Below, piece by piece: positions 342 to 30,002 of a stretch of DNA of 33,086 nucleotides (within the stretch, counting starts at the first letter, position 1; every line of letters starts with the position of its first letter). Both the position numbers and the translations under genes were made by a program. The notes under the pieces were generated by a model, which saw nothing but the letters and a program-made list of their open reading frames with translations, was not told where the DNA came from and made no database searches. The stretch is from the NCBI GenBank assembly GCA_018334565.1, contig JAGXLU010000018.1, positions 1 to 33,086 of the forward strand, written 5' to 3'. The stretch is from Halanaerobiales bacterium. Lineage in GTDB: Bacteria > Bacillota > Halanaerobiia > Halanaerobiales > M55B127.

Positions 342-357
342 TGGAATGTTTTTTGCA
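342..357 (+). promoter_or_regulatory. Sigma-54 (RpoN) type promoter of the butyrate/acetoacetate operon
   Basis: The element TGGAATGTTTTTTGCA has GG at 343-344 and GC at 355-356, separated by exactly 10 bases. This is the invariant GG-N10-GC spacing of -24/-12 promoters, with TTGCA matching the -12 consensus. It lies about 50 bases upstream of the hbd ATG, with a predicted start near 368. The -24 box reads TGGAA rather than TGGCA, and the same variant occurs at 11208-11223. Confidence 0.7.
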
Positions 358-4564: not shown

Positions 4565-4565
4565 A

Positions 4566-4595
4566 ATTTAAGGGCACTTTAAAGTGCCCTTAAAT
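4566..4595. terminator. Bidirectional terminator between convergent atoA and kamA
   Basis: A perfect 15-base palindrome spans 4566-4595, with arms 4566-4580 and 4581-4595, GC core AAGGGCAC/GTGCCCTT and TTTAAA at the centre. It fills the gap between two convergent genes. The T-rich run is better on the kamA (minus) side, reading into AAATTTTAAAAA, and weaker on the plus side (TTAAATCTTT). Confidence 0.8.
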
Positions 4596-4597
4596 CT

Positions 4598-5794: not shown

Positions 5795-5878
5795 TATGTA
5801 TCCCCCTAAATAAGCAAAATATTTATTATTCATCATATATTTATATAATGCAAAATTCATACCATAGTTTTTACTTTG

Positions 5879-8785: not shown

Positions 8786-10255
8786 ATGGAACAGAAATGG
8801 TTTTTAGATAAGATGAATATTGATAAAGAGAGTTTGTGTAAGCTTTTTAATAACTTAAATGAAGGAATACATATAGTTGACCAGAGAGGAAACACGATAT
8901 TATATAATAAAAAAGCCTCTGAAATTGATGGTCTCAAACCAGAGGAAGTACTGGGGAAAAATATTTTTGAAGTCTTTCCATCTCTTACCTTAGAAACCTC
9001 AACTTTAATGAAGACCTTAAAAGATAAGAAAAGCTATTTTAATCATAAACAGACAATAATAAACTATCGGGGTAAAAAGATAACAACAATAAACCATACC
9101 TTAGCAATTGTTTTTTCTGATAGCAGTGTGGGGGCTGTAGAAATATCAAAAGATATTACACAAACCGAACAGCTTGTTGATAATATTACTAATTTAAGAG
9201 AAAAACTTCAAGTCAATAAAAACGATGTTAAAGTTAATAATGATATAAAAAGAGATAATAATACAAACTATCAATTTTCTGATATAATTGGGCAAAATAG
9301 TAATTTTAATAAGGTTCTAAGTAATGCTATGAAATCAGCTCAAAGTGATTCATCTGTTTTAATTTATGGTGAGACAGGTACAGGTAAAGAACTATTTGCC
9401 CAAAGTATACATAATGCTAGTAGAAGAAGAAAAAATGATTTTATTGCCCAAAACTGTGCAGCTTTACCGAAGGATCTTCTTGAATCATTACTTTTTGGAA
9501 CAGAAAAAGGCAGTTTTACAGGTGCAAGGAGCAAACCCGGTCTTTTTGAAATGGCTGATGGAGGAACAATACTCTTAGATGAAATAAACTCGATGGATCT
9601 TGCTTTACAGGCAAAGTTACTTAGGGTTTTACAAGATGGTAGAGTTAGAAGAATTGGAGGACAAAAAGAGAAAAAAGTTGATGTTAGGATTATTACTACG
9701 ATGAATGTTCATCCTGATAAAGCTTTTGAGTTAAATGATTTGAGAGAGGACTTATATTATAGATTAAATGTAGTTCATATTAAATTACCTCCTTTAAGAA
9801 ATAGAAAAGATGATATACTCTTATTAACGGATTACTTTATAAAAAATTATAATAAGAAGTTTAATAAGGAGATCATAGGCATATCATCTGACTTAAAAGA
9901 GATTTTTTTAAATTATAATTGGCCTGGCAATATTAGAGAGCTTAAACATGTTATAGAGAGTGCATATAATGTAAAACAGTTGGGGGACACTTTAGAACTA
10001 GGTGATCTACCAGGATATATTAATGAAAGGTTAAGTCAAGATCAAAAAAGAAAGAGTAACCTTGGTTTCTCAAAACAAATTATAGAAAAAGATCAATTGC
10101 CTGCTTTAGATATTTTTTTAGAAGATATTGAGTTAAAACTTATTAAAAAAGCTTTAAATAAGACTGGTTTTAATATTAGTGCTGCAGCCCGAAAACTAGA
10201 TATTTCAAGACAGTCATTGCAGTATAAATTAAAAAAATATGAAATAAGATTATAA
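8786..10255 (+). CDS. PAS-AAA+-Fis sigma-54-dependent transcriptional activator
   Basis: Enhancer-binding activator for RNA polymerase-sigma-54. A PAS sensor (about residues 15-125; GIHIVDQRGNTILYNKKA) is followed by a Lys/Asn-rich linker. The AAA+ domain has Walker A GETGTGKE (195-202), the sigma-54 contact loop GSFTGA (242-247; the usual form is GAFTGA) and Walker B ILLDE ending at Asp265-Glu266. The C-terminal Fis-type helix-turn-helix is NISAAARKLDISRQSLQYKLKKY. The 489 residues and architecture match RocR/BkdR-type regulators of amino acid catabolism. It precedes lysO by 17 bases, so the two are probably one transcript. Two sigma-54 type promoters in the window are its likely targets; the effector sensed by PAS is unknown, with lysine or an intermediate a reasonable guess. 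Confidence 0.92.
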   Translation: MEQKWFLDKMNIDKESLCKLFNNLNEGIHIVDQRGNTILYNKKASEIDGLKPEEVLGKNIFEVFPSLTLETSTLMKTLKDKKSYFNHKQTIINYRGKKITTINHTLAIVFSDSSVGAVEISKDITQTEQLVDNITNLREKLQVNKNDVKVNNDIKRDNNTNYQFSDIIGQNSNFNKVLSNAMKSAQSDSSVLIYGETGTGKELFAQSIHNASRRRKNDFIAQNCAALPKDLLESLLFGTEKGSFTGARSKPGLFEMADGGTILLDEINSMDLALQAKLLRVLQDGRVRRIGGQKEKKVDVRIITTMNVHPDKAFELNDLREDLYYRLNVVHIKLPPLRNRKDDILLLTDYFIKNYNKKFNKEIIGISSDLKEIFLNYNWPGNIRELKHVIESAYNVKQLGDTLELGDLPGYINERLSQDQKRKSNLGFSKQIIEKDQLPALDIFLEDIELKLIKKALNKTGFNISAAARKLDISRQSLQYKLKKYEIRL

Positions 10256-11207: not shown

Positions 11208-11223
11208 TGGAACAGAAATTGCA
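11208..11223 (+). promoter_or_regulatory. Sigma-54 type promoter of the lysine fermentation operon
   Basis: TGGAACAGAAATTGCA has GG at 11209-11210 and GC at 11221-11222 with exactly 10 bases between, and a consensus TTGCA -12 box. It lies in the 51-base gap between lysO and kamB, with the predicted start near 11234. It shares the upstream heptamer TATGGAA with the promoter at 342-357. Confidence 0.72.
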
Positions 11224-11247: not shown

Positions 11248-12279
11248 ATGTCTTCTAAAATAAGTGATCTAATTAAAAAGAATAATATTAAAACCCTATC
11301 AATAATTGGTTTGGCTAAAAATACTGGTAAAACAGTAACCTTAAATAAGGTTATTGAGGACTTTTTTTTAATGCACAAAAAGGTGGCTGTAATGTCATAT
11401 GGCCGTGATGGAGAAAAATATGATCTATTAACTAAGCTAAAAAAACCGCCGGTTAAGATCCATCCCAACACCTATTTTGTTACTGCTGAAAAAACAGTAA
11501 ATGATATAAAACTAAAGTTTAAATTTATAAAAGACACAAATATTCAATCTACAATGGGTAGGGTAAAGATATATAAAAGTTTATCAGAAGGAGAAGTTCA
11601 ACTTGTAGGTATAAACAGAAGTAGCCAGCTAAAAAAAATAAAAGAAATTTTAATTGATCAGATAGATTATTTAATAATAGATGGTGCTCTTGATAGAAAA
11701 AGTTCTGCTCTACCAATATTAAGTGATGCTGTAATATTAACAACGGGAGCAGTAATCGGTCAGGATATTAATAAGGTAGTTTTAAAGACCAAATATGAGG
11801 TTAAAAAACTGTTAACAGGTAGTTTAAAAGACGAAAAAGATTTACTTGTTTTAAAAGATAACTATAATAAAGAAAATAGTTTAATCTGGACAAAAGATAA
11901 CAATTTTTTTTCTTCTAAACCATTACTATCAAATCTTTTTTTAAAAAACAATATGGAAATATTAAAGAGCAATAGAGTTAATATTAAATATATATTACTA
12001 CGGGGTTCATTTACCAATACCACCGCTAATATTTTAATTAATTTAGGTCTTGAAAAAATAACTGTATTAGTTTCTGATTCGACTAAAATATTTTTAGATC
12101 AAATGGTATATAATCGGCTAAAAAAGAGAAATATTAAACTTAAAGTACTTTTTAAAATAAATCTAATAGCGATTACAATTAATCCCTTTAATCCTTATGG
12201 GAAAGATTTTATAGCATCTGATTTTTATAAAAAAATAAAAGAAGAGTTTGATATTGAGGTATTTAATGTAAAAAGTTAA
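11248..12279 (+). CDS. kamB: KamB-like P-loop protein of the lysine aminomutase operon
   Basis: A 343-residue cytoplasmic protein with a Walker A-like loop GLAKNTGKT (about residues 21-29) and DYLIIDGALDRKSSA, a plausible Walker B region, near residue 140. The C-terminal 150 residues show no motif I know. Genes called kamB precede kamDE in other lysine fermenters. Their function is not established; reactivation or chaperoning of the cobalamin-dependent aminomutase, by analogy with other B12-mutase reactivases, is inference. It is first in the operon behind the sigma-54 promoter and lies 21 bases before kamD. The MutS-like KamC found beside KamB in some clusters is absent here. Confidence 0.7.
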   Translation: MSSKISDLIKKNNIKTLSIIGLAKNTGKTVTLNKVIEDFFLMHKKVAVMSYGRDGEKYDLLTKLKKPPVKIHPNTYFVTAEKTVNDIKLKFKFIKDTNIQSTMGRVKIYKSLSEGEVQLVGINRSSQLKKIKEILIDQIDYLIIDGALDRKSSALPILSDAVILTTGAVIGQDINKVVLKTKYEVKKLLTGSLKDEKDLLVLKDNYNKENSLIWTKDNNFFSSKPLLSNLFLKNNMEILKSNRVNIKYILLRGSFTNTTANILINLGLEKITVLVSDSTKIFLDQMVYNRLKKRNIKLKVLFKINLIAITINPFNPYGKDFIASDFYKKIKEEFDIEVFNVKS

Positions 12280-12300: not shown

Positions 12301-13872
12301 TTGAATAATAAATTAGATTTAGATCAAAAACTGATCTCACTTTGCAGAAATTATACTAAAAGTATTGCTGATAAGGTAGAAAAAAAGATAGTCAATAATA
12401 CAACTACTTCAGTAGAAAGAACAATTTTGAGATTTTTAGGGGTTGATGGAGTTGATAATCATGGCATCCCTCTACCAAATGTAATAGTAGATAAAGTCCG
12501 AAATGAACAGAGATTAAATAAGGGTATTTCGTATTGGTTTGGAAATGGATTAATGCAAACTGGTCTACCGGCCCAAAGATTAGCAGAAGAAATATCTGAA
12601 GGAAAAATTGACTTATTTTCACTTTATAAAGAAAAAAATGAAGATATTAAAGAACATATATTAAAACTTTCTGAAAAAAAAGCTGAACAGATAAAACAAC
12701 AGGTTAAAAAAAGGGAAATGATGCAGTCTAAATATCCACTCGGATTAAAACCCTGGCTTTATGTGATTGTTGCCACGGGTAATATAAATGAAGATGTAAA
12801 ACAGGCAAAGGCTGCAGCCAGAGAAGGTGCTGATATTATTGCAGTTATTAGAAGTACTGCTCAAAGTCTATTAGATTATGTACCTTATGGACCTACTACA
12901 GAAGGTTTTGGCGGAACATATGCTACCCAGGCTAACTTCAAGATAATGAGAGAGGCCTTAGATCAAGTAATAAAAGAGGAAGAACGATATATTCAGCTCG
13001 TTAACTATTGTTCCGGTTTAGCTATGCCTGAGATAGCGCAGATGGGTGCAGAAGAAAGATTAGATATGATGTTAAATGATGCGATGTATGGTATACTTTT
13101 TAGAGATATAAATATGAAAAGGACCTTTGTAGATCAGCATTTTTCCAGGATGATAAATGCCTATGCAGGTATAGTCATCAATACTGGTGAAGACAACTAT
13201 TTGACTACTGCTGATTCTCTAAAAGAGTCACATACAGTTGTAGCTTCTCAATTTATTAATCAGGAGTTGGGTCTTAGAACCGGTTTAAAGAATGGACAGC
13301 TTGGTTTAGGCCATGCATTTGAAATAAACCCAGAAATTAAAGACAGCTTTTTATTGGAGATTGCTCAAGCTCAGCTAGTAAGACAGATTTTCCCTGATGC
13401 CCCATTAAAGTACATGCCCCCAACTAAATATATGAATGGTGATATTTTTAGGGGTCATCTTATGGACGGTATGTTCAACTTTGCTTCAATTATCACTGAT
13501 CAATCGATCCAGTTACTAGGTATGTCAACAGAGGCAATTCATACTCCATTTATACAGGATCGGGCCTTAAGCATAGAAAATGCTAAACATGTCTTTAATT
13601 CTGCCCGCAATATCAGCAGTGAAATTACCTTTAAATCTAACGGTAAAATTCAAAAAAGAGCTGATCAAGTATTAAAAGAAACTGCGGAACTATTAAAAGT
13701 AATAGCTGAAAAAGGACTAATGAAATCTCTTTCTGAAGGTATATTTGCAGATATTAAAAGGCCTATCGATGGCGGAAAAGGTGCTGATGGTGTGATAAAG
13801 AAAGATAGTGATTATTTTAATCCTTTCGCTGAAGTATTCTCTAAGGAGTTGGAAATTCAAGATGAAAGATAA
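12301..13872 (+). CDS. kamD: Lysine 5,6-aminomutase, alpha subunit
   Basis: Large catalytic subunit of the AdoCbl- and PLP-dependent mutase that converts L-beta-lysine to 3,5-diaminohexanoate, and D-lysine to 2,5-diaminohexanoate. Its 523 residues match KamD (about 516). The conserved barrel segments include LGLKPWLYVIVATGNINEDV (in part), AAAREGADIIAVIRSTAQSLLDYVPYGPTTEGFGGTYATQ (in part), NYCSGLAMPEIA and KYMPPTKYMNGDIF. Translation starts at TTG (12301) after a strong AAAGGAGG (12287-12294). The 3' end overlaps kamE by 11 bases, which suggests translational coupling of the two subunits. Confidence 0.93.
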   Translation: MNNKLDLDQKLISLCRNYTKSIADKVEKKIVNNTTTSVERTILRFLGVDGVDNHGIPLPNVIVDKVRNEQRLNKGISYWFGNGLMQTGLPAQRLAEEISEGKIDLFSLYKEKNEDIKEHILKLSEKKAEQIKQQVKKREMMQSKYPLGLKPWLYVIVATGNINEDVKQAKAAAREGADIIAVIRSTAQSLLDYVPYGPTTEGFGGTYATQANFKIMREALDQVIKEEERYIQLVNYCSGLAMPEIAQMGAEERLDMMLNDAMYGILFRDINMKRTFVDQHFSRMINAYAGIVINTGEDNYLTTADSLKESHTVVASQFINQELGLRTGLKNGQLGLGHAFEINPEIKDSFLLEIAQAQLVRQIFPDAPLKYMPPTKYMNGDIFRGHLMDGMFNFASIITDQSIQLLGMSTEAIHTPFIQDRALSIENAKHVFNSARNISSEITFKSNGKIQKRADQVLKETAELLKVIAEKGLMKSLSEGIFADIKRPIDGGKGADGVIKKDSDYFNPFAEVFSKELEIQDER

Positions 13873-14617
13873 TATTATAAGAGCCTATGGTGATACATAT
13901 AATGATGGTAAAATACAGCTCAGTTTTACACTCCCGGTTAAACAAGGATTAAAAGCAGCTGAAGCCTGTAAGAGATACTGTTTCAAACTAGGATTAGAAG
14001 ATGTGGAAGTTGTTCATATGAAGGATCTCAAAGAAGGTTTTACTTTTTTTGTTGTTTATGCTGTTTCGAAAAAATCTGTTAACTTTGATAAGATAACTGT
14101 TGCAAAGATCGATACTGAAATAATGGATTATTATAAAATTAATGACTATATAAAAGAAAAAATTAATAGAAAGGTAAATGTTGTGGGAGCCTGTACAGGT
14201 ACAGATGCTCACACAGTGGGTCTTGATGCAATCTTAAACATGAAAGGATATGATGGTGAATACGGGTTAGAGAGATACCATGAGATTAACACTGTAAATA
14301 TGGGCAGCCAGGTTGCAAATGAAAAACTGATTGAAACTGCTGTAAAGATGAAGGCAGATGCAATTTTAGTTTCACAGGTTGTAACTCAGAAGAATATACA
14401 TATAAAAAATTTGACAGAATTTGTTGAAATATTAGAAGCAGAGGGTTTAAGAGATCAGTTTATTTTAATATTAGGAGGGCCTAGGATAAGTCATGAACTA
14501 GCCTTAGAATTAGGTTTTGATGCAGGTTTTGGTAGTGGAACCAAACCTAATGAGGTTGCTTCATATATTGTACAAAAAGTCTATAAAGATTCAATATTAG
14601 TTAAAGGTGGTGAATAA
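13862..14617 (+). CDS. kamE: Lysine 5,6-aminomutase, beta (B12-binding) subunit
   Basis: Small subunit carrying the cobalamin-binding Rossmann domain. The base-off motif DxHxxG is visible as Asp115-Ala-His117-Thr-Val-Gly120. The PLP Schiff-base lysine is Lys128 in NMKG; both sit 16 residues earlier than His133 and Lys144 of the characterised enzyme, so the spacing is preserved. VSQVVTQKN and LILGGPRIS are later parts of the B12 fold. The frame is open upstream, but ATG 13862 with AAGGAG at 13843-13848 inside the kamD end is the natural start, giving 251 residues. AdoCbl supply is probably linked to the cobalamin operon from 24222. Confidence 0.93.
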
Positions 14618-14618
14618 A

Positions 14619-15011
14619 GTGGATAATACAGTTATGATTAGAGTTAGAATGGGTTTAAATGATGCTCATTATGCAGGTGAATTAGTCGATGGAGCTAAGC
14701 TTTTAGAATTATTTGGAGATGCTGCTACAGAGTTATTGATTAGAAGTGATGGTGATGAAGGTCTTTTTTTGGCATATGATAATGTGGAATTCAAAGCCCC
14801 TGTTTTTGCTGGTGATTTTATAGAAGCGAGGGGAGAGATAGTAAAAAAAGGTAGGACATCCCGGCAGATGAAATTCATAGCTTACAAAGTAATAACTTCT
14901 GCTGACAATTCAGAGCTTGCATCAGCCTGTGATGTTTTAGAAGAGCCCATAATAGTCTGTAAGGCCAGCGGTACCTGTGTTGTACCCTGGGAAAGGCAGA
15001 GAAAACCATAA
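14619..15011 (+). CDS. kal: 3-aminobutyryl-CoA ammonia-lyase
   Basis: Hot-dog-fold enzyme that eliminates ammonia from L-3-aminobutyryl-CoA to give crotonyl-CoA. [28 protein letters not shown] (N-terminal helix and turn, given in part) and [22 protein letters not shown] are typical of Kal and its acyl-CoA thioesterase-like relatives. I chose GTG at 14619, just after the kamE stop, with AAAGGTGG (14603-14610) as the ribosome site. This gives 130 residues, close to the roughly 126-130 of known Kal; upstream GTG codons at 14607 and 14610 overlap that site. It overlaps kce by one base. Confidence 0.88.
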
Positions 15012-15829
15012 TGGAAAAATTAATAATAACTGCAGCTATTTGTGGAGCGGAAGTGACAAAAGCAGACAATCCTAATCTTCCCATAAGTGCTTCGGAAATT
15101 GCCCAGGCCTCTCTATCTGCTGAACAAGCAGGTGCTTCGATTATTCACCTACATGTCAGGGATGAAGCGGGAAACCCAACCCAGCAAAAAGAGGAATTTA
15201 AAAAGGCAATTGATAAAATTAAAGAATATGGGGTGAAAGCTATAATTCAACCATCGACAGGAGGAGCTGCTGGTATGACCTGGCAGGAAAGAATTCAACC
15301 GATTTATTTGAATCCGGAAATGGCTACTTTGGATTGTGGAACAACCAATTTCGGTGATGATATTTTTGTGAATGATCTACCTTTGATGAGAAACTTTGCC
15401 CAAGAAATGAAAAAACTTGATATTTTACCCGAATTAGAGTGTTTTGAATTAGGCCATATCTATAATGCATTGAAGCTATTAAAAGAAGGTTTTTTAGATA
15501 GACATCTTCATTTTGATATAGTTTTAGGAATCCCGGGTGCTATGCCGGCTTCGATTAAAAACCTCTTATTTATGGTTGAGCACTTACCTTCAGATGCTAC
15601 CTGGACTTCTGCAGGGATTGGGAGACACCAGCTTGAAATGGCCTACCACACAATAACAATGGGAGGGCATGTAAGGGTGGGATTTGAAGATAATATCTAT
15701 TATAAAAAAGGAAAACTGGCTGAAAGTAATTCTCAATTAGTAAAAAGAGTTGTAAGACTGGCTGAAAATTATGGACGAAAGATTGCTTCACCCCGTGAAG
15801 CTCGCCAAATATTACAAATTAAAAAATAA
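15011..15829 (+). CDS. kce: 3-keto-5-aminohexanoate cleavage enzyme (BKACE family)
   Basis: Zn-dependent enzyme that condenses 3-keto-5-aminohexanoate with acetyl-CoA and releases acetoacetate plus 3-aminobutyryl-CoA. The zinc ligands appear in HLHVRDE as His46 and His48, the same numbering as in the crystallised Cloacimonas Kce. GGHVRVGFEDN supplies the catalytic Arg222 and the third ligand Glu226. QPSTGG and the LDCGTTNFG strand complete the TIM barrel. The 272 residues match the family. The ATG overlaps the kal stop (TAATG), which indicates coupling. BKACE enzymes vary in substrate, but the operon identifies this one as Kce. Confidence 0.95.
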   Translation: MEKLIITAAICGAEVTKADNPNLPISASEIAQASLSAEQAGASIIHLHVRDEAGNPTQQKEEFKKAIDKIKEYGVKAIIQPSTGGAAGMTWQERIQPIYLNPEMATLDCGTTNFGDDIFVNDLPLMRNFAQEMKKLDILPELECFELGHIYNALKLLKEGFLDRHLHFDIVLGIPGAMPASIKNLLFMVEHLPSDATWTSAGIGRHQLEMAYHTITMGGHVRVGFEDNIYYKKGKLAESNSQLVKRVVRLAENYGRKIASPREARQILQIKK

Positions 15830-15865: not shown

Positions 15866-16900
15866 ATGAAAAAAGGTAACAAATATGGATTACATAGAGT
15901 TATTAAACCCAAGGGTGTTTTACCACAACCTGCCCAGAAAATTGATAATGCAATGGAACTATATGATAATGAGATTTTAATAGATGTACAGGTTTTAAAT
16001 ATAGATTCTGCCAGTTTTACCCAAATTAAAGCAGAAGTTGGAGATAATGAGGAAAAAATAAAGGAAAAAATGATGGCGATAGTGAATAAAAGAGGTAAGC
16101 ATCATAATCCTGTTACAGGTTCTGGTGGTATGTTAATAGGAACTGTCAAAGAGATAGGAGATAGGCTTTTGGACAGAGATCTAAAAGTTGGTGATAGGAT
16201 TGCAACTTTAGTTTCATTGTCCTTAACACCTCTTAAAATCGAGAAAATCAAAAAGGTACATAAAGAGATTGATCAGGTTGAAGTAAAAGCACAGGCTATT
16301 TTGTTTGAAAGCGGCATATATGCAAAACTACCTACCGATATAGAAGATACTCTTTCTCTGGCAGTACTTGATGTAGCAGGGGCAGCAGCTCAAACAGCAA
16401 AATTAGTCAAGCCGGGTGATAATGTTTTAATTATAGGAGCAGGTGGAAAATCCGGATTATTATGTTTACATGAAGCTAAAAAAAGGGCTGGTGTTACAGG
16501 TACTGTAATAGGAATGGGACACAGTGATAACAGCTGTAAGAGGATAAAAGAATTAGGAGCAGCAGATATTATTATCCAGGGTGATGCGACTCAACCTGTA
16601 GAAAGTTTAAAACTCCTCAAGACTCAAACCGGAGGGGAACTTGCCGATATAGTTATCAACAATGTAAATATTACAGATACCGAGATGGCATCTATCTTGT
16701 GTACAAAAGATAAAGGGACTATCTACTTTTTTTCAATGGCAACAAGTTTTACAAAGGCTGCTCTTGGAGCAGAAGGTGTTGGTAAAGACGTAAATATGAT
16801 TATAGGCAATGGTTTTACAGAGGGACATGCCCAGATTTCTCTAGAGATATTGAGAGAAAATCAAAAGTTGCAAGAGATTTTTACAAGATTATATACATAA
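15866..16900 (+). CDS. kdd: L-erythro-3,5-diaminohexanoate dehydrogenase
   Basis: NAD(P)-dependent oxidative deaminase that makes 3-keto-5-aminohexanoate, the Kce substrate. The medium-chain-dehydrogenase-like protein begins KKGNKYGLHRVIKPKGVLPQPA, the typical Kdd start (given in full here). A Rossmann motif GDNVLIIGAGGKSGLLCLHEA lies near residues 185-205 and is followed by LGAADIIIQGDAT. The 344 residues fit Kdd. ATG follows CAGGAGG at a good distance, 36 bases after kce. With kamA, kamDE, kce and kal it completes the known lysine-to-acetoacetate/crotonyl-CoA path within this window. Confidence 0.92.
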   Translation: MKKGNKYGLHRVIKPKGVLPQPAQKIDNAMELYDNEILIDVQVLNIDSASFTQIKAEVGDNEEKIKEKMMAIVNKRGKHHNPVTGSGGMLIGTVKEIGDRLLDRDLKVGDRIATLVSLSLTPLKIEKIKKVHKEIDQVEVKAQAILFESGIYAKLPTDIEDTLSLAVLDVAGAAAQTAKLVKPGDNVLIIGAGGKSGLLCLHEAKKRAGVTGTVIGMGHSDNSCKRIKELGAADIIIQGDATQPVESLKLLKTQTGGELADIVINNVNITDTEMASILCTKDKGTIYFFSMATSFTKAALGAEGVGKDVNMIIGNGFTEGHAQISLEILRENQKLQEIFTRLYT

Positions 16901-16915
16901 TTAGGAGTGTTGTGC

Positions 16916-17386
16916 ATGGGTTTGGATAAGAAAAATGAGGATTACCTTTTGATGTATGATAGTGTAAAGGCACTATTAGAAGGAGAACAAGATTGGATTG
17001 CCAACCTGGCCAATATATCTGCTTTATTATATTTATATCTAGAAAATGTAAACTGGGTTGGTTTTTATTTGTTAAAAGAAAGTGAGTTGGTTTTAGGTCC
17101 TTTTCAGGGCAAACCAGCTTGTATAAGAATTGAAGTTGGTTCTGGAGTATGTGGTACTGCAGTTAAAGAAAAAAAGGCTATCATTGTTGATGATGTTGAT
17201 CAATTCAAAGGTCATATAGCATGTGATACTGATTCTAAATCAGAAATAGTAATTCCATTGGTCAAAAAAGGAGAAATTATCGGAGTCTTAGATATCGATA
17301 GTCCTTTACTAAACAATTTTAATGAAGTTGATAAAATTTATTTAGAGAAGATGGTTCGGTATTTAATTGATACTTCTAATATTTAA
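16916..17386 (+). CDS. msrC: GAF-domain free methionine-(R)-sulfoxide reductase-like protein
   Basis: Single GAF domain of 156 residues that matches the fRMsr family, which reduces free methionine-R-sulfoxide. Landmarks are NWVGFYLL, LGPFQGKPACIRI, GSGVCGTAV, HIACD and GVLDIDSP. The three conserved cysteines (CIRI, VCG, ACD) are present, so catalytic competence is likely rather than mere ligand binding. An in-frame GTG lies at 16907, but ATG 16916 with AGGAG at 16903-16907 is the better start. It follows kdd by 15 bases and so belongs to the lysine operon, where an oxidative repair enzyme is not an obvious partner. Confidence 0.87.
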   Translation: MGLDKKNEDYLLMYDSVKALLEGEQDWIANLANISALLYLYLENVNWVGFYLLKESELVLGPFQGKPACIRIEVGSGVCGTAVKEKKAIIVDDVDQFKGHIACDTDSKSEIVIPLVKKGEIIGVLDIDSPLLNNFNEVDKIYLEKMVRYLIDTSNI

Positions 17387-17425
17387 TGTTTTTAGATTAT
17401 TTAAATTAATCAGGAGGGGAATAAT

Positions 17426-18292
17426 TTGGAAATAAATAAGGAGAAACTTGTTATGCAGGCGGTTCAGGGTTCTATATCTCATCCAATGTCAGCTCGGACT
17501 CCCTATAGAATGGATAGAGAGGGTGTTGGGCAGATAGTTCCGGGTACAGGCGGCATTTCTTATAATGTTAGAATAGGGAATCCTGCTTTTGGTTGGGCTG
17601 GGGATCATATTGAACCGGGAGTTAGTATGAAGATAAGTGATAAAAACAAATCAAGTGAAAACTATGGATTGGGCTTATTGGCGTGTATAGGAAATAAGGC
17701 GAAAATAATAAGTGGTGATGGGCAGGGATCATATGGTTATGTGACAGGTACCCATGGTGGAATAGAACATGTGATTGTAGACTTTGAAGCCAATGTATTA
17801 GAAAAGTTAATAATAGGTGATGACATTTTAATCAAAGCATTTGGTCAGGGTCTTAAATTACTTGATTATCCAGATATAAAAGTATTTAATCTTGATCCAA
17901 ATTTACTGGATAAGATGAATATCAATCAAAAAGAAGGCTATCTGGAAGTGGGAGTCAGTACTGTTATTCCGGCTCATTTAATGGGTTCAGGTATTGGTGC
18001 TTCAAGTGTGGCTTTGGGCGATTATGATATAACAACCGGTGATCAAGAAGAAATTGAAAGACTAAAGATAGATAAATTAAAATTGGGTGATTTTGTTTAT
18101 CTTAAAGATTGTGATAATACATATGGCAGGGAGTTTAAAAAGGATGCAGGTAGTATCGGAGTAGTAGTCCATAGTGATTGTATAAAAATGGGGCATGGTC
18201 CTGGGGTAACTACTGTAATGACTGCTAAAGATGAATTATTAAAACCTTTAATTGATCGAGATGCTAATCTTATTAACTATCTCTACGACTAA
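17426..18292 (+). CDS. DUF4438 family protein of unknown function
   Basis: A 288-residue soluble protein that I recognise as DUF4438 (the group including Thermotoga TM1086, known only structurally). Conserved stretches include IVPGTGGISYNVRIGNPAFGW, ISGDGQGSYGYVTGTHGGIEH (given in parts) and the C-terminal HSDCIKMGHGPGVTTVM. The glycine-rich THGG, the HSD and the GHGPG segments look like ligand or metal sites. There is no signal peptide or membrane helix. Translation starts at TTG (17426) after CAGGAGGGGA. It ends the apparent lysine operon, 39 bases after the GAF protein. No terminator follows before the rubrerythrin promoter. A role in lysine or 3,5-diaminohexanoate metabolism is guilt by association only. 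Confidence 0.8.
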   Translation: MEINKEKLVMQAVQGSISHPMSARTPYRMDREGVGQIVPGTGGISYNVRIGNPAFGWAGDHIEPGVSMKISDKNKSSENYGLGLLACIGNKAKIISGDGQGSYGYVTGTHGGIEHVIVDFEANVLEKLIIGDDILIKAFGQGLKLLDYPDIKVFNLDPNLLDKMNINQKEGYLEVGVSTVIPAHLMGSGIGASSVALGDYDITTGDQEEIERLKIDKLKLGDFVYLKDCDNTYGREFKKDAGSIGVVVHSDCIKMGHGPGVTTVMTAKDELLKPLIDRDANLINYLYD

Positions 18293-18311: not shown

Positions 18312-18340
18312 TTGACATCATTAGGTGCGGATGCTATAAT
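18312..18340 (+). promoter_or_regulatory. Consensus sigma-A promoter for rubrerythrin
   Basis: TTGACA (18312-18317), exactly 17 bases, then TATAAT (18335-18340), preceded by an extended -10 TGc. Every core position matches consensus, which predicts very strong expression. The start is expected near 18347, about 50 bases before the ATG. Confidence 0.88.
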
Positions 18341-18349
18341 CAATTTTAA

Positions 18350-18364
18350 TAGTAATAATTATTG
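18350..18364. promoter_or_regulatory. PerR-box-like inverted repeat overlapping the rbr start
   Basis: TAGTAAT-A-ATTATTG (18350-18364) matches 10 of 14 positions of the PerR box 7-1-7 consensus TTATAATnATTATAA. The core AATAATTATT is a perfect palindrome. It lies just downstream of the predicted start, where a repressor would block a consensus promoter. In such AT-rich DNA a chance match is possible. Confidence 0.35.
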
Positions 18365-18395
18365 ATAAGAAAATTCAAGGAGGTTGCATAATATA

Positions 18396-18953
18396 ATGGT
18401 AAATAATGATATGACAGCTCAAAATTTGAGATCTGCCTTTGGAGGAGAAAGTCAGGCTTATCAGAGATATATAGTATGGAGTGAAAAAGCAAAAAAGGAC
18501 GGATTTCCCAATGTGAGCCTTCTCTTTAAAGCAATAGCTTATGCAGAACAGGTACATGCTGGAAATCACTTTGAAGCCCTTGATAACTGTAAAGGGGGGT
18601 TTCTTGTTGCATCTGGTGCTGAATTTGGGTTAGGTTCTACAGCTGATAACCTAGAAGGTGCTAAAGCAGGTGAGGATTTTGAAATTACTCAGATGTATCC
18701 CACATATAATTTGGTTGCAAAAGAGCAGCAGGAAAATGAAGCTGTTCGGTCTTTCCACTATGCTTTAGAGGCTGAAAAAACACACTCTACATTATTTGGT
18801 GAAGCCAGGAAGTCAGTATTAAGTAGTGATGACTATGAATTGGAAAGTGTAAGTGTATGTGATGTATGTGGGCATACTGTTAAAGATGGTACTCCTGAAA
18901 AATGTCCAATTTGCTCTGCGCCAAAAGAAGAGTTTACTGTATTTGAAAAATAG
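18396..18953 (+). CDS. rbr: Rubrerythrin
   Basis: Non-haem di-iron peroxidase that reduces hydrogen peroxide in anaerobes. The four-helix ferritin-like domain contains GGESQAYQRY, AYAEQVHAGNHF and EQQENEAVRSFHYALEAEKTH (given in part), which carry the Glu/His iron ligands. A C-terminal rubredoxin-like domain has CDVCGHTV and CPICSAPKEEF for the FeS4 site. The ATG at 18396 follows CAAGGAGGT (18377-18383 region); the upstream in-frame TTG overlaps that site and is rejected. The length is 185 residues, typical for the family. It is followed 45 bases later by superoxide reductase, so superoxide and then peroxide are removed by one transcript. Confidence 0.95.
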   Translation: MVNNDMTAQNLRSAFGGESQAYQRYIVWSEKAKKDGFPNVSLLFKAIAYAEQVHAGNHFEALDNCKGGFLVASGAEFGLGSTADNLEGAKAGEDFEITQMYPTYNLVAKEQQENEAVRSFHYALEAEKTHSTLFGEARKSVLSSDDYELESVSVCDVCGHTVKDGTPEKCPICSAPKEEFTVFEK

Positions 18954-21763: not shown

Positions 21764-23125
21764 ATGGATAATGAATATATCGAATACGATAAAGGCAACA
21801 AAAAATTAATAGCTGAAAAAATATTTATCAATAAAAAGCCCCGATCCCGGGTTATGATTGATATAGTTAAAAACATCAAAAATAATTTAAAAAGATATAG
21901 GTTTGGCAGCGATAAAGTTCTTAAATTTAGTAAAGCTGAGAGAATTGGTGGTGAATATTTTTTACTGACAAAAGATGAAAACTATTACCCTTCTCTGATA
22001 GAAAATATTACCTCAGGTAATATTGAAGTAGATAAAGCTGCAGATTGGTGTTTGCAGATATTACAAATTTGGAACTCATTAAATGATAAGATAGAATTTT
22101 CATCTGAAATTAAATTAAATTACTTTAGGGTAGATCATAAAAGTAATATTAAATTGGTTGATCCTCATATAAATAGGATTATTGAGCAGTATAGATATCC
22201 ATATTTTGAAAAAGAATTTGATGAAATATACCGGTCTCCAGATTTGATCAGCAAACAAAATTGGAATGAAAAGGCTCGTATATATAACTTTGGAGTTATA
22301 TTTTATTATCTTCTGACAGGGCGATTTCCTTTTCAAGCAGATAATAAAAAAGACATGTATGATAAAAAAATGACGGGGTCTTTTTTGAAAGCCCGTTATT
22401 TAAATTCGGAAATTTCTGTTAAATTTAGTGATTTAATTACGAAGATGCTGCAGTCTGATCAAAAAAAACAACCTGTTTCCATCAATACTATAATAAATGA
22501 AATAAAACATTTAAAAGAGAAAAAATCTATAAAAGCCCTGCCTCAGGTAAGAGAGCAGAACTTAAATAAAAAAGAAACACAATTAAGGAAAAGTAGATTA
22601 AAAGAAAATATTTTATTCTATTTTAGGCATCACTGGGGAAAAACATTATTTTTTGGGATTATAATTACAGCCATATTATCAATTGGGCTTTTAGGTACCA
22701 ATCCTCCTGTTATCACTGAAGCAACTACACCGGATCAGCTTATTAAATATTTTTATGATTCAATAGACAAAAAGAACCCTGTGATTTTAACTCAAACCAC
22801 CTCAGTTAATCTAAAAAAACTAAAAACTATGGTTTCAGAAGGATATGTGATGGAAACGATGCGGGGTGCTTATCAAAATCAGAATGATGAGGAAGATATT
22901 GGAGAAAAGGTATTTGGTATTAAGAGTTTAAATATCAATAGTACTGCAGCCAGTGATTATTATCAATATGAAATAAGTTATATATTCTATTATCCGCGTG
23001 AAGACAAAATGCAAGAAAAAAATATGGTGGACAGACTTTTAGTTAAACAAGAAGATGGTAAATGGCAGATAACCGAAATTAAGGGAGATATTGTTGATTT
23101 AATTGAAGGTAATTTTGAAGGATAG
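21764..23125 (+). CDS. Membrane-anchored protein kinase-like (probable pseudokinase) protein
   Basis: A 453-residue protein in three parts. Residues 1-250 resemble the fold of a Ser/Thr kinase: YRSPD at 156-160 stands where APE would be, and RIYNFGVIFYYLLTGRFPF (172-190) is a clear helix-F motif. The HRD loop is replaced by LNYFRVDHKSN and DFG by VDP (132-134). No glycine-rich loop is visible. This suggests loss of catalysis. A basic linker leads to one transmembrane helix (about 294-311; FFGIIITAILSIGLLG). The outer part (312-453) looks like a small NTF2/DUF4878-type domain: TTPDQLIKYFYDSIDKKNP, then DRLLVKQEDGKWQITEI. It is 15 bases after pgi and abuts nadE. The function is unknown. Confidence 0.62.
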   Translation: MDNEYIEYDKGNKKLIAEKIFINKKPRSRVMIDIVKNIKNNLKRYRFGSDKVLKFSKAERIGGEYFLLTKDENYYPSLIENITSGNIEVDKAADWCLQILQIWNSLNDKIEFSSEIKLNYFRVDHKSNIKLVDPHINRIIEQYRYPYFEKEFDEIYRSPDLISKQNWNEKARIYNFGVIFYYLLTGRFPFQADNKKDMYDKKMTGSFLKARYLNSEISVKFSDLITKMLQSDQKKQPVSINTIINEIKHLKEKKSIKALPQVREQNLNKKETQLRKSRLKENILFYFRHHWGKTLFFGIIITAILSIGLLGTNPPVITEATTPDQLIKYFYDSIDKKNPVILTQTTSVNLKKLKTMVSEGYVMETMRGAYQNQNDEEDIGEKVFGIKSLNINSTAASDYYQYEISYIFYYPREDKMQEKNMVDRLLVKQEDGKWQITEIKGDIVDLIEGNFEG

Positions 23126-24157: not shown

Positions 24158-24192
24158 CAGATCTTTAATTTTGAAGGAGATCTGGTTTTTTT
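24158..24192 (+). terminator. Second intrinsic terminator before cobU
   Basis: CAGATCT (24158-24164) pairs with AGATCTG (24178-24184), extendable by A-U and G-U pairs, and is followed by seven Ts (24186-24192). It ends 30 bases before the cobU start and is the better-formed of the two hairpins. Confidence 0.72.
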
Positions 24193-24221
24193 ATTTGTTA
24201 TATAAAAAGGGGTTGAAAAGC

Positions 24222-24830
24222 TTGGCTAAAATCATATTAATCTTAGGTGGTGCTCGGAGCGGGAAGAGCACTTTTGCAGAAAAGATTGCAAAAAAATTAG
24301 GTGGTGAGCAGGTTAGTTATATAGCGACGGCAGAAGCCCTTGATCAAGAAATGCAGGAGCGGATTAAACTTCATCAATCTCAGAGATCAAAAAAATGGGA
24401 TACAATTGAAGAGCCAAAGGAAGTATCTAAAGTTATTAAAAGAGTAGAAAACAGCCGAACAATTTTGATAGACTGTCTGACTCTCTTTATTTCCAATTTA
24501 TTATTAGAAAAAGAGAATTTAAAAAATGAGAATAATCTAGAGATAAAAAATAAGCTTGAAGATGAAATTATCAATGAGGTTAAAGAAATTATAGATATAG
24601 CGCGCAAAAAACATATGAATTTGATAATAGTATCAAATGAGGTAGGGCAGGGCCTGGTACCAAGTTATGAACTAGGCAGACTTTTTAGAGATATTTCAGG
24701 GAGGGCTAATCAAATGATGGCTCAGAAAGCCGATAAAGTATATTTAACTATAGCTGGTTTTGCTCTTGATTTAAATGAACTAAATAAAAACAATCAAGCT
24801 GATATTTTGAAGGATTTGGGTGAAGGATAA
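24222..24830 (+). CDS. cobU: Adenosylcobinamide kinase / adenosylcobinamide-phosphate guanylyltransferase
   Basis: Bifunctional enzyme that phosphorylates adenosylcobinamide and converts it to GDP-cobinamide. Walker A is GGARSGKST. RIKLHQSQRSKKWDTIEEP contains the guanylylated-His region, followed by LIDCLTLFISNLL and SNEVGQGLVPSYELGRLFRD (in part), all typical of CobU. I chose TTG 24222 behind AAAAAGGGG (24204-24212). An upstream in-frame start at 24171 would put coding sequence inside the terminator and is rejected. The length is then 202 residues. It is first in an eight-gene B12 operon under the riboswitch. Confidence 0.93.
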   Translation: MAKIILILGGARSGKSTFAEKIAKKLGGEQVSYIATAEALDQEMQERIKLHQSQRSKKWDTIEEPKEVSKVIKRVENSRTILIDCLTLFISNLLLEKENLKNENNLEIKNKLEDEIINEVKEIIDIARKKHMNLIIVSNEVGQGLVPSYELGRLFRDISGRANQMMAQKADKVYLTIAGFALDLNELNKNNQADILKDLGEG

Positions 24831-24831
24831 G

Positions 24832-26352
24832 ATGACAAAAACAATTATGTTTCAGGGAACAGCCTCCAATGTGGGGAAAAGCATGATGGCGGTAGCTTTA
24901 TGCAGAATATTATACCAAGAAGGTTATCGAGTTGCTCCCTTTAAATCCTGGAATATGGCATTAAATTCCTATGTGACAAAAAACGGTGGGGAGGTTGGCA
25001 GAGCTCAGGCTTTACAGGCAGAGGCCTGCAATATCGAAGTAACAGTTAATATGCAGCCCTTTTTGATAAAACCAAAGGGTAAGGGGAAATCACAGGTTAT
25101 TTTTAAGGGAAAGCCGCTCGGCGATTTTACTGACAATTATCAAAATAAAGAATATATTCAATGGGCACTTCGCATTATAAAAAAATCACTGAATGAACTG
25201 TTTTTAAACTATGAAGTAGTGGTTATGGAAGGAGCTGGTAGTCCAGCAGAAATCAATATAAAAGATAGAGATCTGGCTAATATGAAGGTGGCAGAATTAT
25301 TTAAGACACCGGTCATATTAGTAGCTGATATAGACAAGGGAGGGGTATTTGCTTCCATCGTAGGCACACTGGAATTATTGGGTGACAAAAAAGATTTAAT
25401 AGAAGCTATTATAATAAATAAATTTAGAGGTAGCAGAGAATCACTACAGTCCGGTTTAAAATTTATTGAAAATAAGACCGGGATACCTGTTCTGGGAGTT
25501 ATGCCTTATTTAAAGAATATTTCATTGCCGGAAGAAGATTCTGTCATGATTAAAGAGCACAAAAACCAAAAGGCAGAAATTAAAATCGGCGTAATTAAAT
25601 TACCCCACATATCAAATTTTACTGATTTCGATATATTGGGTATGGAGCCTTTACTTGAATTGAACTATATAGATAGTGATCAAAACGATCTTGGCAAATA
25701 TGATGCGGTTATTTTACCCGGCACTAAAAATACAACCGAGGATTTATTTTATATAAAAGAAAAGGGATTAGATAATAAAATTATTGAAGCAGCTGAAAAA
25801 GGAGTGGAAATTATCGGAATCTGTGGAGGATATCAAATGCTAGGGAACAACTTAATTGATCCTGAACAGACCGAGGGTAGTTTGAAAGTTATAGAAGGAC
25901 TTTCCCTGCTGGATATAGAGACTGAATTTAGTGCAGGTAAAAAGACCCATCAAATAGAGGCTTTAACACATAATAATTTAGAACTTTCAATAGATTTTTC
26001 AAAAGAGGTAATTAAAGGCTATGAAATACATATGGGAAAAACAGCCTTGAAAGAAGATTCTTCACCTTTATTTAAGATAATATTACGTTCAAATCAAGAA
26101 TGTTTGATCAATGATGGAGCTATATCAAAAGATCAGAAGGTATGGGGAACTTATATTCACGGAATTTTTGATAATGATATCTTTAGAAAAAAATTTATAA
26201 ATAAACTCAGTCAGGATAAAATAAAAAAACGAGATCAGATCGATTTGATAAATTTCAAAGAACAAAGAAGTAGTTCAATCGATAAATTAGCAGAAGAGGT
26301 AAAGAAAAATATGGATATGGATTTATTGTATAGAATAATTGGACTTGATTAG
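24832..26352 (+). CDS. cobQ: Cobyric acid synthase
   Basis: Glutamine-dependent amidation of adenosylcobyrinate a,c-diamide at four side chains to give cobyric acid. The N-terminal dethiobiotin-synthetase-like P-loop is GTASNVGKSMM. ADIDKGGVFASIVGT and NKFRGS follow. The C-terminal class I glutaminase has GICGGYQMLG (nucleophilic Cys) and YIHGIFDN (catalytic His). ATG 24832 with AAGGAT just upstream is preferred over GTG 24820, which lies inside cobU; this gives 506 residues, the normal size. Its presence means the cell can use late corrin-ring intermediates, not only salvage cobinamide. Confidence 0.94.
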   Translation: MTKTIMFQGTASNVGKSMMAVALCRILYQEGYRVAPFKSWNMALNSYVTKNGGEVGRAQALQAEACNIEVTVNMQPFLIKPKGKGKSQVIFKGKPLGDFTDNYQNKEYIQWALRIIKKSLNELFLNYEVVVMEGAGSPAEINIKDRDLANMKVAELFKTPVILVADIDKGGVFASIVGTLELLGDKKDLIEAIIINKFRGSRESLQSGLKFIENKTGIPVLGVMPYLKNISLPEEDSVMIKEHKNQKAEIKIGVIKLPHISNFTDFDILGMEPLLELNYIDSDQNDLGKYDAVILPGTKNTTEDLFYIKEKGLDNKIIEAAEKGVEIIGICGGYQMLGNNLIDPEQTEGSLKVIEGLSLLDIETEFSAGKKTHQIEALTHNNLELSIDFSKEVIKGYEIHMGKTALKEDSSPLFKIILRSNQECLINDGAISKDQKVWGTYIHGIFDNDIFRKKFINKLSQDKIKKRDQIDLINFKEQRSSSIDKLAEEVKKNMDMDLLYRIIGLD

Positions 26353-26363
26353 GGGAGGATTTA

Positions 26364-27308
26364 ATGTTTGTATTATTATCAGCTGTCATCCTTGATTTGC
26401 TATTAGGTGATCCTACTTCATATCCTCACCCAGTTGTTTTAATGGGAAAAATGATTTCAGCTTTTGATGATATATTACGGGATAATTTAGAAGATAACAA
26501 AAAGCAGAGAATAAAGGGTTTTGTCTTAGTATTATCGGTATTATTAATTACTTTTTTAATAACTTATTTTACGATTTTTCTTTTTACTTATCTAAATGAT
26601 TATTTAAGTACAGCCCTTAAAATATTTATCTTATATACATCAATAGCAATAAAAGGTTTGAGTGAGGCAGGTAGAAAAATATATAAAAGCTTACAAGATG
26701 GCAATAAAAAAAAGGCCTGCAGCAGTTTAAATATGATTGTGGGCAGAGAAACAAAAAATTTAAACAAAGATGAAATTATCAGGGCTACGGTTGAAACGAT
26801 TGCTGAGAATACAAGTGATGGTATTATAGCACCTCTTTTTTATTATCTAATAGGCGGTCCAGTTGCAGCAGTTTCATATAAAGCGGTTAATACAATGGAT
26901 TCTATGTTGGGATATAAAAATCAGGAATACAGATATTTTGGTTGGACTGCAGCTAAATTAGATGATGTGGTTAACTACATTCCAGCCCGGTTAACAGCCC
27001 TTTTTATTATAATAGCTGCTTTTTTATTACAAAAAGATTATAAAAGGGCCTATAGGGCGATATTAAACGATGCTGACAAACATGTGAGTCCAAACGCCGG
27101 TTACCCGGAGGCAGCGGTAGCAGGAGCCCTTGGAATCCAGCTGGGAGGTGTTAATTACTACTTTGGACGAGTCAGTGAAAAAGCTTTGCTGGGAGAAAAA
27201 ATATTAGATTTTAGTAATAAAAATATAAAAGAAACTATTAGCTTAATGTATATTGCAAGTTTTAGTTTTATATTAATGTCAGTCTTTTTGGTATATATAT
27301 TTAGATAG
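26364..27308 (+). CDS. cbiB: Adenosylcobinamide-phosphate synthase
   Basis: Integral membrane enzyme that attaches (R)-1-amino-2-propanol O-2-phosphate to cobyric acid. The N-terminal hallmark DLLLGDPTSYPHPVVLMGKMI (given to residue ~26) is present. VGRETKNLNKDEIIRATVETIAENTSDGI (in part), AVNTMDSMLGYKN and DDVVNYIPARLTA are family blocks, and PNAGYPEAAVAGALG lies near the C-terminus. Several hydrophobic helices (about 50-95, 210-225, 290-312) anchor it. It has 314 residues, 11 bases after cobQ. Its substrate comes from CobD, encoded four genes later. Confidence 0.94.
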   Translation: MFVLLSAVILDLLLGDPTSYPHPVVLMGKMISAFDDILRDNLEDNKKQRIKGFVLVLSVLLITFLITYFTIFLFTYLNDYLSTALKIFILYTSIAIKGLSEAGRKIYKSLQDGNKKKACSSLNMIVGRETKNLNKDEIIRATVETIAENTSDGIIAPLFYYLIGGPVAAVSYKAVNTMDSMLGYKNQEYRYFGWTAAKLDDVVNYIPARLTALFIIIAAFLLQKDYKRAYRAILNDADKHVSPNAGYPEAAVAGALGIQLGGVNYYFGRVSEKALLGEKILDFSNKNIKETISLMYIASFSFILMSVFLVYIFR

Positions 27309-27318
27309 GAGTGAGAAA

Positions 27319-28359
27319 ATGGAATTATTAGAGAAAACCATTAAAAATATTGGCAGTTTAGATCAGGGCAGCATGGAAAGTGCTCAAACACGTCTTGATA
27401 ATCTGACTAAACCACCGGGTAGTTTGGGATATCTAGAAGAACTTGCTGTAAAAATTGCTGGGATAACGGCAGTAACCTTACCTGATGTAAGTCAAAAAGC
27501 ACATATTATCATGGTTGGGGATCATGGAGTTGTTAAAGAAGGGGTGAGTGCCTTTCCTCAAACTATAACTGCTGCAATGGTTAAAAACTTTTTAAAGGGC
27601 GGAGCAGCTGTCAATGTATTTGCCAATCAATACAATGTGGATATTTCCATCGCTGATATTGGAATGATAGAAAAGATAGATGATGATAAATTGATCCAGA
27701 CCAATATCAAAAGAGGCACAGATAATATCTTAAAAGGCCCTGCGATGAGTCACAAAGAAGCAGTTGAAAGTATAGAAGTAGGTATTAAAATAGCAGAGCA
27801 GTTGATTGATCGAGGAAAGAATATAATTGGGACAGGTGAGATGGGCATAGGAAATACTACTCCCTCCAGCGCTATCATTTCTGTGGTAATTGAAAATAGT
27901 TTAGATGAAATCGTAGGATATGGCACTGGACTTGATAAAAAAGGCTTAGAAAATAAAAAAGCAGTAATCAACAAGGCCTTAAAGGTAAATAAGCCCCAAA
28001 AGGATGATGGGATTGACATCCTTTCCAAGGTGGGGGGATTAGAAATTGGGGGTATGGCAGGAGTGATGTTAGCAGGTGCAGCTCATAGAAAGCCAGTCAT
28101 GATCGATGGTCTAATATCTGGGGCAGCTGCCTTAATTGCTTATTTAATTGAGCCTGATGTTATTAATTATTTGATCCCTTCTCATAAGTCTGTAGAACCT
28201 GGTCACGATAAACTCTATCAATATTTGAATTTAAGACCTATGTTTGATTTAAATATGAGATTGGGAGAAGGTACAGGTGCTATTTTGGGAATGGGTATAG
28301 TTGAATCTTCTATCAGAATTATTAAAGAAATGGCTACTTTCGATACGCTTGATTTTTAA
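27319..28359 (+). CDS. cobT: Nicotinate-nucleotide:dimethylbenzimidazole phosphoribosyltransferase
   Basis: Activates the lower-ligand base (dimethylbenzimidazole or another benzimidazole) to alpha-ribazole phosphate. Motifs are LTKPPGSLGYLEELA, MVGDHGVVKEGVSAFPQ, GTGEMGIGNTTPSSA and the C-terminal PSHKSVEPGH that carries the catalytic Glu. The 346 residues match CobT. ATG follows a GGAGTGA site 10 bases after cbiB. No gene for making dimethylbenzimidazole (bluB or bzaABCDE) is visible, so the lower ligand may be imported or made elsewhere. Confidence 0.95.
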   Translation: MELLEKTIKNIGSLDQGSMESAQTRLDNLTKPPGSLGYLEELAVKIAGITAVTLPDVSQKAHIIMVGDHGVVKEGVSAFPQTITAAMVKNFLKGGAAVNVFANQYNVDISIADIGMIEKIDDDKLIQTNIKRGTDNILKGPAMSHKEAVESIEVGIKIAEQLIDRGKNIIGTGEMGIGNTTPSSAIISVVIENSLDEIVGYGTGLDKKGLENKKAVINKALKVNKPQKDDGIDILSKVGGLEIGGMAGVMLAGAAHRKPVMIDGLISGAAALIAYLIEPDVINYLIPSHKSVEPGHDKLYQYLNLRPMFDLNMRLGEGTGAILGMGIVESSIRIIKEMATFDTLDF

Positions 28360-28369
28360 GGAGGCTGAG

Positions 28370-29104
28370 ATGAATTCATTTTTAATAGCCCTGCAATTTA
28401 TTACAGTAATACCTGTTAAAAAAGAACTCAATTATAGTGAAAAGAATATAGCTCGCTCCATGTTATATTATCCTTTAATTGGAACATTTTTAGGATTAGT
28501 TTTAGTTATTATCAATTTATTAGGTACAATGTTTTTACCTAATTTGGTTAGGGATGGACTGATTTTATTATTCTTTGTCATTCTTTCAGGTGGTATCCAT
28601 TTGGATGGATTAGCAGATAGTTTTGATGGGCTATTTGGAGGTAAAAATAAAAAAGAGGTTCTATCAATTATGCATGACAGCAGGATAGGTGTTTACGGTG
28701 TACTTGCTTTGATCTTACTTTTATTCTTAAAATTCATCTTATTAATCGAACTTCCCCTGGCTCAGAAAAATGCAGCTTTGATAATGGTTCCAACCGTAAG
28801 CCGTTGTGCGATGGTATTGGCAGTTTTTATATTTCCTTATGCAAGAAGAGAAGGAATGGGTAAGGCATATCAGATATATTTAGAAAAATCTCAGGTTTTA
28901 ATTTCTGTTTTATGGACAGTTCTGGTCAGTCTATTTTTGTTTTTCTTTAAAGGAGCCCTAATTCTAGCAATTACTGCTGCAGCCGTTTGGTTATATGGCA
29001 GGTTTTTTATCAAAAAGATTGATGGGTTAACAGGTGATCTTTACGGAGCACTCAATGAGATAATGGAAGTGCTTATATTATTCATGTTAATTTTATTTTT
29101 TTAA
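28370..29104 (+). CDS. cobS: Cobalamin 5'-phosphate synthase / cobalamin synthase
   Basis: Polytopic membrane enzyme that joins GDP-cobinamide with alpha-ribazole (phosphate). GGIHLDGLADSFDGLFGG is the Asp-rich active-site motif, and MHDSRIGVYGVLAL and MVPTVSRCAM follow. Most of the remaining sequence is hydrophobic, consistent with 6-7 membrane helices. The frame extends back into cobT, but ATG 28370 behind AAGGAGG gives 244 residues, the usual size. It is 10 bases after cobT. Confidence 0.93.
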   Translation: MNSFLIALQFITVIPVKKELNYSEKNIARSMLYYPLIGTFLGLVLVIINLLGTMFLPNLVRDGLILLFFVILSGGIHLDGLADSFDGLFGGKNKKEVLSIMHDSRIGVYGVLALILLLFLKFILLIELPLAQKNAALIMVPTVSRCAMVLAVFIFPYARREGMGKAYQIYLEKSQVLISVLWTVLVSLFLFFFKGALILAITAAAVWLYGRFFIKKIDGLTGDLYGALNEIMEVLILFMLILFF

Positions 29105-29114
29105 GGAGATAGTT

Positions 29115-29987: not shown

Positions 29988-30002
29988 GGGAGGGTTAATG
30001 TA

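Follow-up and report, generated by a model that had tools for sequence, protein, structure and literature searches.

DUF4438 is a protein family with a structure solved since 2008, yet it remains without an assigned function. In the stretch of DNA analysed here, 33,086 nucleotides of contig JAGXLU010000018.1 from a Halanaerobiales bacterium (hereafter, the window), a DUF4438 gene closes a run of lysine-fermentation genes, and it was originally predicted that its product might supply an activity missing from that pathway, such as a racemase/epimerase or a damage-control step. The locus therefore raises the question of whether DUF4438 is a dedicated part of lysine breakdown or a general gene that came to lie beside it.

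The predicted reading frame was borne out as a DUF4438 gene by matches to both Pfam domains and to TM1086. Its TTG start, which coincides with the start residue of other family members, is preceded by a ribosome-binding site. The product matches PF14505 with 192.2 bits (gathering score, 24.9) and PF20999 with 169.1 bits (gathering score, 27), far over both thresholds; the two domains lie in order and jointly span residues 27–286, as in a full-length member of the DUF4438/TM1086 family. The protein also matches TM1086 of Thermotoga maritima (PDB 3DCL and 3N99) end to end (298 bits, approximately 51% identity), which has the same two domains over its whole length and likewise has no assigned function. 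An AlphaFold model (mean pLDDT 93.5) superposes on TM1086 (3DCL) with a TM-score of 0.93, indicating the TM1086 fold. A fold search of the PDB and viral libraries returned no solved structure other than TM1086 at E ≤ 0.001, a profile search for further solved-structure relatives returned none, and viral contigs and plasmids yielded no DUF4438 relatives. As modelled, the fold is an orphan without a characterised relative. The proposed racemase or epimerase role finds no support here, as sequence and fold match DUF4438 and TM1086 only. A literature search, with subscription journals mostly outside its coverage, found nothing on DUF4438/PF14505 function; for TM1086, 3DCL and 3N99, the crystallisation paper alone was relevant, in which TM1086 features for crystals whose asymmetric unit exceeds 1 MDa (PMC2661377). 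The window protein belongs to a known but uncharacterised family, from which only its operon context sets it apart.

That context was confirmed by NCBIfam and Pfam matches and by the sequence itself. The gene order is lysO–kamB–kamD–kamE–kal–kce–kdd–fRMsr–DUF4438 (Table 1), with the short gaps and ribosome site that had been predicted, and every gene from kamB to kdd exceeds its curated NCBIfam cut-off. The fRMsr label derives from a GAF-domain match together with a reading of the sequence, and the NCBIfam models gave no match to this protein; its true start is likely the ATG at 16916.

Table 1. Positions of features discussed in the text (window coordinates, except for the amidase of locus L088).
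Feature	Position	Strand	Evidence or remark
Sigma-54-type element before hbd	342–357	+	Sequence scan
kamA, lysine 2,3-aminomutase	4598–5860	-	589.7 bits, cut-off 525.4
Sigma-54-type element at kamA start	5849–5864	-	Sequence scan
Ornithine-racemase-like PLP protein	5954–7033	+	441.8 bits, just below Orr cut-off of 480
PrdR-like sigma-54 activator	8786–10255
lysO	Start 10273		Heads the order before kamB
Sigma-54-type -24/-12 element	11208–11223	+	TGGAACAGAAATTGCA; 40 nt 5′ of kamB
kamB, aminomutase reactivase subunit	11248–12279	+	294.9 bits, cut-off 210
kamD, lysine 5,6-aminomutase alpha subunit	12301–13872	+	NCBIfam
kamE, lysine 5,6-aminomutase beta subunit	13808–14617	+	NCBIfam
kal, 3-aminobutyryl-CoA ammonia lyase	14607–15011	+	NCBIfam
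kce, 3-keto-5-aminohexanoate cleavage enzyme	15011–15829	+	NCBIfam
kdd, L-erythro-3,5-diaminohexanoate dehydrogenase	15866–16900	+	NCBIfam; final lysine-pathway gene 5′ of fRMsr–DUF4438
fRMsr-like GAF protein (free methionine-(R)-sulfoxide reductase type)	16907–17386	+	GAF-domain match
Ribosome-binding site of DUF4438	17412–17419	+	AGGAGGGG; 6 nt 5′ of TTG, read directly from sequence
DUF4438 protein	17426–18292	+	288 aa, TTG start; PF14505 residues 27–162, PF20999 residues 163–286
Sigma-70 promoter TTGACA-17-TATAAT	18312–18340	+	12/12, extended -10; directly 3′ of DUF4438; best site of the scan
Protein-kinase-like protein	21764–23125	+	Pkinase, 48.6 bits
Cobalamin-synthesis-like gene run	24171–31088	+	CobU at 24171 by Pfam, others by eye
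FmdA-type amidase (locus L088)	4498–5403	-	110.7 bits; directly downstream of fRMsr beside kam operon

The window also contains hbd, crt, thiolase and CoA-transferase subunit alpha genes, and family-profile matches give every known lysine-fermentation step its own gene. In the genus of the window, KamBDE, Kdd, Kce and Kal are encoded in one gene run with DUF4438, and KamA nearby on the opposite strand; DUF4438 matches none of their families. Because KamA and an ornithine-racemase-like protein are already encoded in the window, the lysine pathway has no gap. A cobalamin-synthesis-like gene run shares the window with the B12-dependent lysine 5,6-aminomutase. Elsewhere in the window, a gene for a protein-kinase-like protein lies directly 3′ of the phosphoglucose isomerase gene, a position at which relatives also encode a protein of similar length.

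Signals in the DNA suggest that DUF4438 is the end of the kam transcription unit. Among the genus members read, the kdd–fRMsr gap is 6–15 nt and the fRMsr–DUF4438 gap 23–39 nt, and between kdd and DUF4438 we found no convincing promoter and no terminator-like site on the + strand. Sigma-54-type elements head three lysine units (hbd–crt–ato–thl, kamA and the run that begins with kamB). The four elements found in the window, versus 1.9 expected, are not beyond chance as a count; their positions and conservation are telling. The element 39–40 nt before kamB is in the same place in L095 and L175–L177 (at -39 in L189), and other Halanaerobiales have similar sites ahead of kam genes. A gene for a PrdR-like sigma-54 activator lies near these elements. 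Directly 3′ of DUF4438 is a consensus sigma-70 promoter; because this promoter follows DUF4438 and is conserved in kin (L095 and L175–L177), the downstream rubrerythrin and desulfoferrodoxin genes (rbr and dfx) probably form a separate unit. Within 18312–18400, that promoter is followed, before rbr–dfx, by an A/T-rich imperfect palindrome, AATAGTAATAATTATTGATAAG, which resembles a PerR/Fur-type operator. In the genus, DUF4438 may be co-transcribed with the kam genes.

A comparison of 38 Halanaerobiales genomes, in which DUF4438 was found in 16 and kamD over its cut-off in 20, shows how far this arrangement extends. In the genus of the window, kam and DUF4438 lie within approximately 5 kb of each other in five of five genomes (the G426 contig stops within its DUF4438 match), and DUF4438 is the distal kam-operon gene in all readable loci, namely the window, L095 and L175–L177, of which L095 and L177 are near-identical copies. 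L095 (7698–8414, + strand), L176 and L177 also encode a 238-residue protein between kce and kdd that the window lacks; Pfam places the L095 protein in the FMN-reductase family. The predicted lysine-operon context holds in this genus and does not hold in other Halanaerobiales: kam linkage of DUF4438 was not found beyond the one genus, kam and DUF4438 are on different contigs in the eight other genomes that have both (G404, G416–G421 and G423), and kam operons elsewhere in the order stop at kdd, without DUF4438 (L086, L190–L192 and L194). This last observation, together with the presence of KamA and the racemase-like protein, argues against the notion of a missing pathway activity.

The more widely shared partner is fRMsr, which accompanies DUF4438 in most Halanaerobiales that have it. 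The pair occurs without adjoining kam genes in L097, L098, L179–L181 and L185, with gaps of 4–78 nt; in L096/L178 the two genes are 686 nt apart with one gene between. The fRMsr-linked DUF4438 proteins of Halanaerobiales group in a single clade (19 rows, support 100/100). The simplest history is that the fRMsr–DUF4438 pair is old and became attached to the kam operon in the genus of the window.

Beyond the order, the neighbourhood of DUF4438 is highly variable. Across 62 distinct lineages the commonest flanking Pfam families account for at most 3 of 118 immediate neighbours, and the gene is mostly solitary, with 38 of 120 genes lacking any neighbour on the same strand within 120 nt. Outside Halanaerobiales, the named loci that were read show fRMsr only once, four genes away (L103). 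Several loci place DUF4438 with enzymes of peptide and amino acid turnover. A P1/S58 peptidase gene lies 3 nt upstream in L150, and L052 and L063 also carry one at a distance of two genes upstream; operon partners include an S9 peptidase (L172 and L188), a beta-aspartyl-peptidase (L186, 509 bits) and an asparaginase (L052); consecutive M42 peptidase genes follow DUF4438 in 10 loci; and 5-oxoprolinase subunits and D-glutamate cyclase are encoded beside it in L054/L055. A flavin-reductase-like protein and glycerate kinase are further repeated operon partners. L052, L063, L172 and L188 belong to one clade (support 100/94); the P1- and S9-linked loci lie in neighbouring clades and are therefore not all independent. 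The immediate neighbours include M42 (3), M20 (3), M28 (2) and Lon (2), which are small numbers among 118, and no peptidase family is among the matches listed for 95 distant neighbours (best 25 families); this contrast between near and far is not proof. The peptidase theme is weak because no partner is conserved. A nitroreductase-like protein is encoded upstream of DUF4438 in L041/L101, with two nitroreductase-family members among the neighbours, and in another clade CotJC-like manganese catalase genes, read from sequence, diverge from DUF4438. Tandem DUF4438 pairs in L064, L137 and L152 represent a duplication in one lineage; the L064 copies are approximately 53% and 47% identical to the window protein.

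Genome content gives a different picture from gene neighbourhood. DUF4438 is found in archaea as well as several bacterial phyla and is widespread in oxygen-avoiding microbes. In a phylum-wide sample of 299 genomes, DUF4438 was present in 47 and kamD in 61 (60 over the cut-off and one split gene). Either kamD or oraE was found in 36 of the 47 DUF4438 genomes versus 34 of the 252 others (Fisher p = 1e-17) and, counted by family, in 18/25 families with DUF4438 versus 16/97 without (p = 2e-7). For kamD alone the figures are 31/47 versus 30/252, and within Halanaerobiales 13/16 versus 7/22 (p = 0.004). However, DUF4438 is absent from 30 of the 61 kamD genomes, and kamD from 16 of the 47 DUF4438 genomes. 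Within families the association is absent (28 observed versus 28.8 expected), although this is a weak test, few families varying in both traits. By the listed coordinates, kamD and DUF4438 are close together in no genome of the sample other than that of the window. The co-occurrence with B12-dependent aminomutases looks like a shared amino-acid-fermenting lifestyle rather than a pathway link. An association with amino acid fermentation was part of what had been anticipated; it is present at the genome level and, by neighbour statistics, missing at the gene-neighbour level outside the genus. As a marker of oxidative-stress defence, desulfoferrodoxin shows no enrichment (16/47 DUF4438 genomes versus 129/252 others), which gives no indication of a general redox-repair role. 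Indolepyruvate oxidoreductase was discarded as a correlate: no clear enrichment was visible by eye, and its model also matches other oxidoreductases in almost all genomes.

These results bear on several explanations. A dedicated lysine-fermentation enzyme, one that epimerises or repairs a pathway intermediate, for example, would suit both the distal kam-operon position in the genus and the kamD co-occurrence across phylum and order. We judge it improbable in view of a pathway that is complete without DUF4438, kam linkage in a single genus, the many genomes that have one gene without the other, the lack of a within-family association and T. maritima, which, unlike the window genome, has DUF4438 (TM1086) and no kamD match. 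Repair of oxidative damage together with fRMsr, rubrerythrin and desulfoferrodoxin, perhaps acting on oxidised amino acids, is also unlikely. It draws on the fRMsr–DUF4438 pair followed by rbr–dfx in much of a Halanaerobiales clade, on the divergent manganese catalase genes and on the upstream nitroreductase-like protein; against these, rbr–dfx have their own promoter, dfx is rarer in DUF4438 genomes and, among the named loci read outside the order, fRMsr appears once only. The fRMsr pairing does mildly favour the damage-control idea.

A further explanation arises from a related genome (G251, locus L088), in which the order is kdd, a divergent small gene, fRMsr and then, in the DUF4438 slot, a gene of the FmdA/AmdA acetamidase–formamidase family (PF03069), which also has an HGG motif. 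Similarly, the row of nitroreductase-like protein, FmdA, rbr and dfx in L204/L225 parallels the nitroreductase–DUF4438 and DUF4438–rbr–dfx orders seen elsewhere. (L204/L225, G424 contig 220, carries a second rubrerythrin–desulfoferrodoxin pair in a genome that also has a DUF4438 cassette, and could be assembly contamination.) That DUF4438 functionally replaces an FmdA-type amidase is nevertheless very improbable. No homology between the families is detectable by profile (hhalign probability 0.3%) or by fold, DUF4438 matching no amidase, and the families co-occur, in the phylum (17/44 versus 52/243 genomes; sample G000–G286), in the order (9/16 versus 9/22) and in T. maritima; replacement, suggestive in one genome, was rejected on these grounds. 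The solitary, variable setting of the gene might instead reflect neutral placement, whereby a housekeeping gene with a role unrelated to amino acids was rearranged to the end of an operon. We doubt this strongly, given the genome-level association with amino-acid-fermenting lineages, the recurring operons with peptidases and the conserved fRMsr pair in Halanaerobiales.

The remaining clues come from the protein itself. Residues invariant in 126 homologues include D60, H61, E63, N90, H110, D132, S188, D199, Y200, D201, D222, H249 and H257, and H115 is conserved at 99%. H110 (in GTHGG), H249 (in VHSD) and H257 (in GHGPG) lie in the very segments that the original prediction had singled out as conserved, and the window protein carries the family-invariant D60, H61, E63, H110, H249 and H257. 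Such strict His/Asp/Glu conservation fits the expectation of an enzyme and, for a soluble protein that stands alone, suggests dependence on a metal.

The explanation that we prefer, and to which we give about an even chance as a whole, is that DUF4438 is a general metalloenzyme whose pairing with fRMsr was joined to the kam operon, and not a lysine step. DUF4438 would be a stand-alone soluble enzyme of the DUF4438/TM1086 family, inherited by Halanaerobiales together with the free methionine-sulfoxide reductase. In the genus of the window, a lysine-fermentation operon under sigma-54 control would have gained the pair at its 3′ end, and DUF4438 is probably produced during lysine fermentation without being a dedicated step of it. 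This contextual part, a general enzyme that joined the operon in one genus, we hold with good confidence. The chemical part is tentative: the likeliest reaction would be metal-dependent hydrolysis or similar, on a small substrate derived from an amino acid or peptide, with catalysis through D60–H61–E63, H110, H115, D199, D201, D222, H249 and H257. The neighbours of DUF4438 point to the origin of the substrate and the fRMsr pairing to a damaged or modified form; candidates would be damaged, modified or otherwise unusable amino acids or dipeptides, and their processing is our best guess at the role.

More speculatively, DUF4438 may represent an uncharacterised, orphan-fold class of metalloenzymes that rescues or detoxifies amino acids or peptides in damaged or modified form (such as isoaspartyl, D-, N-acyl or oxidised) in anaerobic fermenters of peptides and amino acids and is induced with lysine fermentation in this genus. 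Compared with its relatives, the gene appears as an older one of general character that became attached to the lysine operon, and not as a step that lysine breakdown would otherwise lack. The clue given by the lysine operon holds within one genus only; better handles on DUF4438 are the inherited fRMsr–DUF4438 pair, the operons with peptidase genes in other lineages and the invariant residues.
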